From Actinomycetota bacterium (GTDB lineage Bacteria; Actinomycetota; Actinomycetes; Nanopelagicales; Nanopelagicaceae), in assembly GCA_009698675.1 (NCBI GenBank), contig WLPT01000004.1, positions 1 to 64,000 on the forward strand: a stretch of DNA of 64,000 bases, in the 5' to 3' direction. How positions within the stretch are numbered: the stretch's first letter is position 1; each line of letters opens with the position of its first letter. The notes under the pieces are model-generated. The model saw only the letters and a program-made list of their open reading frames with translations. It was not told the DNA's origin and ran no database searches. This document shows positions 51,154 through 53,263 of this stretch, one piece after another. Position numbers and translations under genes: made by a program.

Positions 51154-52593
51154 ATGCGTAGAGCGAAAATAGTGTGCACAATGGGTCCAGCTGTTGAATC
51201 ACCGGAGAAAGTTAAAGAGTTAATCGATGCCGGCATGAACATGGCTCGGCTCAATCTCTCTCACGGCTCATACGAGGAGCATCAACGTCGCTTCGACCAA
51301 GTTCGTGCTGCGGCGAAAAACGCTGGTCGTCCAGTCTCGATTCTTGTAGATCTTCAAGGCCCAAAGATTCGATTGGCCCGCTTTATTGCAGGTCCACATG
51401 AGTTGGCACGTGGTGACATATTTACAATAACTACCGATGAGGTTGAGGGCACAAAAGAGCGAGTGGGCACGACGTATAAGGGCCTTCCCGGGGATTGCAA
51501 AGTCGGTGATCATATTTTAATCGATGATGGAAAAGTCACTGTCCAGGTAGTTGAAGTAAAGGGCAATGACGTTGTTACTAAGGTGATTGAGCCTGGAGCT
51601 GTTAGCAATAACAAAGGTATCAACCTACCCGGTGTTGCAGTTTCAGTACCTGCAATGTCAGAGAAGGATATTGAGGATTTGAGATGGGGATTACGCGCAG
51701 GTGCAGATTTCATTGCACTCTCATTTGTCCGCAACGCTGCCGATATTAAAGATGTTCATAAGATTATGGATGAGGAGGGCATACGCCTTCCAGTTATCGC
51801 CAAGATCGAAAAGCCACAGGCAGTTGCAAACATAGCTGAAATCGTTGATGCCTTCGATGGCATCATGGTCGCGCGAGGAGATTTGGGAGTCGAACTTCCA
51901 ATAGAAGATGTTCCTCTTGTACAAAAGCTTTGCGTAGAACTTGCGCGCGATATGGCCAAGCCAGTAATTGTTGCAACGCAGATGCTCGACTCGATGATTA
52001 TTAATTCACGTCCAACTCGCGCCGAGGCCACAGATTGTGCAAATGCAGTCTTAGATGGTGCAGATGCGTTAATGCTCTCAGGAGAGACAAGCATTGGAGA
52101 GTTTCCAATAGAGGCGGTGCAGACAATGGCCCGCATTATTCAAAAGACTGAAGAGGGTGGACTCGATCGAATCCGCCCAATAAAAACGGCGCCACGTACA
52201 AAGGGTGGAGCAATTACTAAGGCGGCTACTGAAGTTGGTGCAATCGTTGATGCAAAGTATTTAGTCGCCTTTACTCAAAGTGGAGATTCCGCACGTCGCA
52301 TGTCCAGACTTCGCTCGCCAATTCCAATCCTTGCCATGACTCCTGAAGTCGGAACTTATAATCGCTTAGCTCTTTCGTGGGGAGTTGAATCGATGTTGAC
52401 TCCAGTCGTTGGCGCAACCGATGAGATGGTAAAGCTCGTCGATGCCGCTCTTATCGACTCGGGGCGCGCCGTAATTGGCGATAACGTAATAATTGTGGCC
52501 GGTTCACCACCAGGAATTCCAGGATCTACCAATGCGATGCGAGTTCACCGCGTGGGAGATGCTGTTGGTGGCGCCGCTCCCGCCTACCGCTAA
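51154..52593 (+). CDS. pyk: Pyruvate kinase
   Basis: A 479-aa glycolytic enzyme converting phosphoenolpyruvate and ADP to pyruvate and ATP. Motifs include the N-terminal A-K-I-V-C-T-M-G-P-A, N-x-S-H-G near 39, D-L-Q-G-P-K-I-R near 67, I-A-K-I-E-K-P near 212 (catalytic Lys), M-V-A-R-G-D-L-G-V-E-L near 236, and the P-T-R-A-E-A-T-D signature. Synteny (gltBD-pyk) is as in other Actinobacteria. Confidence 0.97.
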   Translation: MRRAKIVCTMGPAVESPEKVKELIDAGMNMARLNLSHGSYEEHQRRFDQVRAAAKNAGRPVSILVDLQGPKIRLARFIAGPHELARGDIFTITTDEVEGTKERVGTTYKGLPGDCKVGDHILIDDGKVTVQVVEVKGNDVVTKVIEPGAVSNNKGINLPGVAVSVPAMSEKDIEDLRWGLRAGADFIALSFVRNAADIKDVHKIMDEEGIRLPVIAKIEKPQAVANIAEIVDAFDGIMVARGDLGVELPIEDVPLVQKLCVELARDMAKPVIVATQMLDSMIINSRPTRAEATDCANAVLDGADALMLSGETSIGEFPIEAVQTMARIIQKTEEGGLDRIRPIKTAPRTKGGAITKAATEVGAIVDAKYLVAFTQSGDSARRMSRLRSPIPILAMTPEVGTYNRLALSWGVESMLTPVVGATDEMVKLVDAALIDSGRAVIGDNVIIVAGSPPGIPGSTNAMRVHRVGDAVGGAAPAYR

Positions 52594-52607: not shown

Positions 52608-52680
52608 GCCTCGGTACTCCAACGGTAGAGAGGGCAGTCTCAAACACTGCATAGTGTCGGTTCGAATCCGACTCGGGGCA
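52608..52680 (+). tRNA. tRNA with Leu (CAA) anticodon, class I shape
   Basis: A 73-nt cloverleaf. The acceptor GCCTCGG (52608-52614) pairs with TCGGGGC (52673-52679, two G-U pairs). The D-arm is CTC/GAG only, and three unpaired bases AGG precede the anticodon arm GCAGT-CTCAAAC-ACTGC (anticodon CAA at 52641-52643). The variable region has 5 nt, the T-arm is GTCGG-TTCGAAT-CCGAC, and the discriminator is A. Canonical tRNA-Leu has a long variable arm, so this is atypical. CCA is not encoded. Confidence 0.88.
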
Positions 52681-52681
52681 C

Positions 52682-53263
52682 ATGTCATTACCCATTCGTA
52701 TTCTCGTAGCCGAAGATGAGGCTTTGATCCGTATGGATCTTGTAGAGATGTTGCAAGGTGCTGGATATGAGGTTGTAGCCGAGGCCACGAATGGCCAAGA
52801 GGCCGTTGAGTTAGCCCAACTACATAGGCCCGATTTAGCTATCTTGGATGTCAAGATGCCGGTGATGGATGGAATTACCGCCGCCGAAAAGATAATTGAT
52901 CTAGCGCCCGTTCTGATGCTTACTGCTTTTTCTCAAAAGGAGCTCATTGATCGCGCCCGCGATGCAGGGGTAATGGCATATGTAGTCAAGCCATTTACAA
53001 TCGGCGATTTAATTCCCGCTATCGAGATTGCAATTAGTAGGCATCTGCAAATGAGATCACTCTCTGAGGAGGTGGCCGATTTACATGATCGTCTTGAAAC
53101 TCGAAAACTGATCGATAGAGCTAAAGGGATTTTAATGAAGGCGTTGAATCTCTCCGAGCCCGAGGCCTTTTCCTGGATTCAACGGGCAGCTATGGATCGG
53201 CGCATGAGCATGAAGGCCGTGGCTGAGGCCGTCATTAACCCAGATGCAGTACCGGAGAGTTAA
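52682..53263 (+). CDS. pdtaR: ANTAR-domain response regulator (PdtaR-like)
   Basis: A 193-aa regulator with an N-terminal receiver domain (phosphoacceptor D56 in L-D-V-K-M-P, acidic pocket E11-D12-E13) and a C-terminal ANTAR RNA-binding domain (about 125-190, with R-A-K-G-I-L-M). ANTAR proteins bind twin-hairpin RNAs and prevent transcription termination. The ATG starts one base after the tRNA discriminator, so there is no room for a normal ribosome site unless the message extends through the tRNA. The synteny pyk-regulator-polA matches mycobacterial pdtaR. Confidence 0.9.
   Translation: MSLPIRILVAEDEALIRMDLVEMLQGAGYEVVAEATNGQEAVELAQLHRPDLAILDVKMPVMDGITAAEKIIDLAPVLMLTAFSQKELIDRARDAGVMAYVVKPFTIGDLIPAIEIAISRHLQMRSLSEEVADLHDRLETRKLIDRAKGILMKALNLSEPEAFSWIQRAAMDRRMSMKAVAEAVINPDAVPES

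Follow-up and report, generated by a model that had tools for sequence, protein, structure and literature searches.

The window analysed here, a 64,000-nt stretch of actinobacterial DNA, carries on its forward strand a pyruvate kinase gene (pyk, 51154-52593; Pfam PF00224 and PF02887), a tRNA gene (nt 1-73, 52608-52680) and a gene for a PdtaR-like response regulator with an ANTAR domain (52682-53263; Pfam PF00072 and PF03861). The tRNA gene was called as tRNA-Leu(CAA) by ARAGORN (52608-52681) and matched the Rfam model RF00005 over its full length (52608-52680) with 52.1 bits against a gathering score of 29 (E 6e-9), identifying it as a tRNA. Bacterial tRNA-Leu is, by the textbook rule, a class II tRNA with a long variable arm. 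The initial annotation had nevertheless described a class I shape with a 5-nt variable loop, A73 and a CAA anticodon in a 7-nt loop, located between pyk and the ANTAR regulator, and each of these features was borne out by the structure described below and by the Pfam matches of both neighbours.

Structure of the tRNA and register of its D-arm

All parts of the cloverleaf were mapped on the forward strand. Covariation placed the 5' strand of the acceptor stem at 52608-52614 with its partner at 52673-52679 (G1-C72 to G7-U66, followed by U8 and A9), the 5' strand of the D-stem at 52617-52619 (CUC, nt 10-12) and the T-arm at 52656-52672. The anticodon stem (27-31/39-43) closes the 7-nt loop CUCAAAC with U33 and the leucine anticodon C34 A35 A36 (52641-52643), on which ARAGORN and the family alignment agreed. 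The variable loop AUAGU (A44, U45, A46, G47 and U48; 52651-52655) occupies the site of the class II long arm, with U48 opposite A15, and its 5 nt place the gene outside class II, defined by a variable region of at least 10 nt. The discriminator A73 is found at 52680, and CCA is absent from the encoded sequence. An alternative fold with a long variable arm was rejected, as the anticodon stem and the T-stem are only 5 nt apart and leave no room for such an arm.

In a comparison of 51 distinct homologues, 99.4% of cloverleaf cells were paired, and the helices showed two-sided changes in 279 cells versus 69 in shuffles. The tRNA is also 96-100% identical across most genomes of the same genus while its flanks are variable, which together with the covariation indicates that the cloverleaf at 52608-52680 did not arise by chance.

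The D-loop (nt 13-22, 52620-52629) contains the leucine-type bases A14, A15, G18, G19, A20a, G21 and A22. Because the sequence GAGAG follows, the CUC strand can pair with either of two GAG registers, and a single-sequence minimum-energy fold chooses the first, so that the two extra unpaired bases initially described before the anticodon stem are a register artefact. Homologous D-stems (GCC/GGC, GUC/GAC and GGC/GCC) put the 3' strand at nt 23-25 (GAG, 52630-52632), and in this second register 100% of cells are paired and two of the three D-stem pairs show two-sided changes, first in 17 and later in 51 homologues. As the D-stems of the homologues pair only in the second register, the D-stem consists of 3 bp (C10-G25, U11-A24 and C12-G23, next to a C13/A22 mismatch) and base 26 alone is unpaired. 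A D-stem of 3 bp had been noted correctly, yet it is not odd, as the class II tRNA-Leu in these genomes have it too. The leucine-type D-arm pattern matched 4 of the 41 tRNAs in G014, a complete genome of the same genus (one contig, 99% complete), and 4 of the 34 distinct tRNAs obtained from the genome to which the window belongs. In both genomes the matches are exactly the four tRNA-Leu, divided equally between class I and class II. The D-arm of this tRNA is that of ordinary leucine tRNAs.

The class I tRNA-Leu family and its neighbourhood

A covariance model, R1, was built for class I tRNA-Leu, with full-length matches scoring approximately 69-97 bits and other tRNAs approximately 60 bits or less. 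The gene scored 91.4 bits in comparison to at most 59 for the non-leucine tRNAs of G014, above the gap of approximately 60-69 bits, which places it in the class I tRNA-Leu family of actinobacteria and phages delimited in this analysis. Of the 396 Actinomycetota genomes sampled, 122 had an R1 match at E 1e-15 or better, and named records possessing the family included Streptomyces, Micromonospora, Frankia, Cellulomonas, Nocardioides, Ca. Planktophila versatilis and Ca. Planktophila lacus. Nearly every genome of the window's genus had a class I tRNA-Leu; the partial genomes G027 and G028 (65% and 75% complete) gave lower-scoring R1 matches only.

All 51 distinct cellular members carried leucine anticodons (UAA 22, CAA 17, UAG 10, GAG 1 and CAG 1), and no class I scaffold with the anticodon of another amino acid was seen among them. 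ARAGORN calls of Phe(AAA) for L384 and L413 were rejected as loop miscalls, since the loop CUUAAAA holds the anticodon UAA. Class I tRNA-Leu with UAG, CAG or GAG anticodons occurred in other actinobacterial lineages (L373 in G037, L399, L400, L402, L403, L405 and L407), so lineages differ in which of their isoacceptors are armless.

Leucylation in E. coli was previously found to need A73, the A15-U48 pair, G18G19 and A20a, the long arm and the anticodon being dispensable (PMC9976931), and the gene at 52608-52680 has all of these identity bases. Within the family (n = 51), A73, A14, G18, A20a and U48 were invariant, with A15 in 50 and G19 in 47 members, an invariance that is partly due to selection because R1 was seeded with members already carrying the leucine identity bases. 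A73 and U8 were also invariant in 80 loci picked with a pattern in which these two positions were left free; bases fixed by that pattern are conserved by design and were given no weight. In comparison to canonical class II tRNA-Leu, the gene shares the 3-bp D-stem, the 13/22 mismatch, A14 and A15, G18G19, A20a, G21 and A22, in addition to U48, A73 and a leucine anticodon, but differs in that class II members have the long arm and 82-88 nt, whereas the variable loop of the family is 5 nt, with 6 or 8 nt in a few members.

Family relatives were found in phages of Streptomyces, Mycobacterium, Gordonia, Lactobacillus, Synechococcus and enterobacteria, and many viral contigs with class I tRNA-Leu were among the matches listed. 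Such genes were common in phages, those infecting enterobacteria and cyanobacteria among them, and mostly had UAA (L080-L083 and viral contigs L235-L314, among the matches listed). Mycobacteriophage attP sites hold the 3' half of the mycobacterial class I tRNA-Leu(CAA), and in Mycobacterium phage Dove (L415:1501-1545) this half lies next to a tyrosine integrase, in keeping with an attachment site. Phage Gaia supplies its own tRNA-Leu-CAA when its integration disrupts that of the host (PMC10865867), which fits a tRNA that the host needs. Class I tRNA-Leu may have been transferred between phages and cells in the distant past.

Of 80 class I CAA loci taken from named records, covering many actinomycete families, 75 have an ANTAR regulator next to the tRNA gene. 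The ANTAR gene is divergently oriented in most lineages; in the window's genus it follows the tRNA downstream on the same strand. All three class I UAA loci checked lacked an ANTAR neighbour, and the neighbourhood of the CAA gene accordingly looks inherited rather than functional. In the window, A73 is followed by C and the ANTAR start codon (A73-C-ATG, 52680-52684), with the ATG 2 nt after A73, and the same arrangement was observed in same-genus loci such as L033, L035, L038-L040, L043-L056 and L058-L060; no ATG occurs at this distance in L032, L037 and L041 of the same genus. Such an arrangement gives a Shine-Dalgarno site no space outside the tRNA, and the ANTAR mRNA may be leaderless and freed by tRNA 3' processing.

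Leucine isoacceptors, LeuRS and the reading of UUG

The leucine set of G014 comprises two class II tRNAs, GAG and UAG (84-85 nt), and two class I tRNAs, CAA and UAA (74 nt). No class II copy with CAA or UAA was found in this complete genome, where a single gene has the CAA anticodon and UUR codons are read solely by the class I CAA and UAA tRNAs. The same four tRNA-Leu were present in the window's own genome (78% complete). Further sets were read from the long tRNAs and R1 matches of two genomes: G054 (9.2 Mb, one contig) has class II UAG, two GAG, CAG and UAA with a class I CAA, and G037 has class II UAA, GAG and CAG with class I CAA and UAG, with no second CAA gene in either among these tRNAs. 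The CAA isoacceptor is class I in all lineages compared, and the other class I isoacceptors vary by lineage. One tRNA-Leu(CAA) gene each has been listed for six Streptomyces genomes (PMC4932002). Odd, low-scoring tRNAs, some of them duplicated, were also called as Gly(ACC), Ala(CGC) or Ala(TGC) (L062:2129-2203 and 2514-2588, both on the reverse strand; L065:1462-1536; L099:12017-12090; L100:115-189, reverse strand), and are perhaps decayed or phage-derived.

A single LeuRS above the TIGR00396 cut-off was present in each of ten genomes searched, and this one bacterial-type enzyme appears to handle leucine tRNAs of both classes within a cell. The LeuRS of G014 (L104) is a one-piece TIGR00396 match; in G015 (L107) and several other genomes the match breaks near profile positions 569-604, and different LeuRS types may occur within the same genus. 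In a codon comparison limited to a few genes of the genus (pyk, the ANTAR gene and leuS), TTG codons aligned with leucine in 75% of the cells of distant homologues, with 73% for TTA and 69% for CTT.

Function of the tRNA and the class II rule

The initial annotation had left open whether this gene is a divergent leucine tRNA or a tRNA-like RNA with a regulatory role, a non-ribosomal use or charging by another synthetase. The first option proved right, given the leucine D-arm, the retained identity bases and the family's anticodons. Judged from sequence, the gene at 52608-52680 is very probably the ordinary elongator tRNA-Leu(CAA) of its actinobacterial lineage, which belongs to the Nanopelagicaceae and probably lies close to Ca. 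Planktophila; for this tRNA we infer expression, charging and use by the ribosome. Although without a long variable arm, it retains the D-arm and core contacts recognised by bacterial LeuRS; the single bacterial-type LeuRS is predicted to load it with leucine, and it would decode UUG. UUA would be decoded by the other class I isoacceptor, tRNA-Leu(UAA), which may reach UUG by wobble too. The rule is broken and the tRNA is most likely still ordinary and working, as the same armless tRNA-Leu occurs widely among actinobacteria and phages.

A regulatory or non-ribosomal role, perhaps linked to the adjacent ANTAR regulator, could be read from the conserved adjacency and from the ATG 2 nt past A73 in many same-genus loci. 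This interpretation is very improbable, as the complete cloverleaf has all core bases, the ANTAR gene is divergent in most lineages, the UAA loci checked do not share the neighbour and the CAA gene is the sole one of its anticodon in complete genomes; if it had no translational use, UUG would rest on wobble by the UAA tRNA alone. Charging with a non-leucine amino acid by another synthetase, with UUG recoded or ambiguous, might be suggested by a class I shape unusual for tRNA-Leu; the leucine identity bases are kept, anticodons vary among those of leucine only and TTG positions align with leucine, making such recoding exceedingly doubtful. The abundance of the same family in phages and viral contigs could likewise point to a recently acquired phage or mobile gene that is not the regular tRNA of the cell, a reading with hardly any likelihood in view of the constant place beside the ANTAR gene across many actinomycete families, the near-identity across the genus and the failure to find a replacement copy in G014.

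Beyond the ordinary elongator reading, the loss of the arm in UUR and some other tRNA-Leu could be a trait shared by actinobacteria and phages that was selected rather than fixed by drift. It might, for instance, help other enzymes to tell leucine tRNAs from serine tRNAs, or let the tRNAs evade nucleases or toxins that take hold of class II arms. We regard such selection as unlikely.

No published account of a conserved short-arm tRNA-Leu family in Actinobacteria was found in the open-access papers searched, which offered only hints. A short variable loop was noted for a tRNA-Leu(TAG) within a cluster of tRNA genes in M. mucogenicum/phocaicum (PMC6582537), and tRNA-Leu-2, -3 and -5 of M. tuberculosis were named as long-loop (PMC11541572), implying that its other tRNA-Leu are without long loops. 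These mycobacterial reports are passing remarks on single genes, whereas the CAA gene described here is unique of its anticodon and its place is conserved across many actinomycete families. Human mitochondrial tRNA-Leu(UUR) accepts leucine despite having no long arm, with its identity in A73 and A14 (PMC9976931), and resembles the present tRNA in the missing arm, leucylation being a prediction here. The mitochondrial tRNA is organellar and has its own LeuRS, in contrast to the one LeuRS that would serve both classes in these bacteria.

In summary, the class II rule for bacterial tRNA-Leu is broken in much of a major phylum, a clear exception to the textbook that involves no new mechanism. Tools relying on the rule may mark real tRNA-Leu genes as doubtful, and class I and class II isoacceptors in one cell provide natural pairs for probing the purpose of the long arm.
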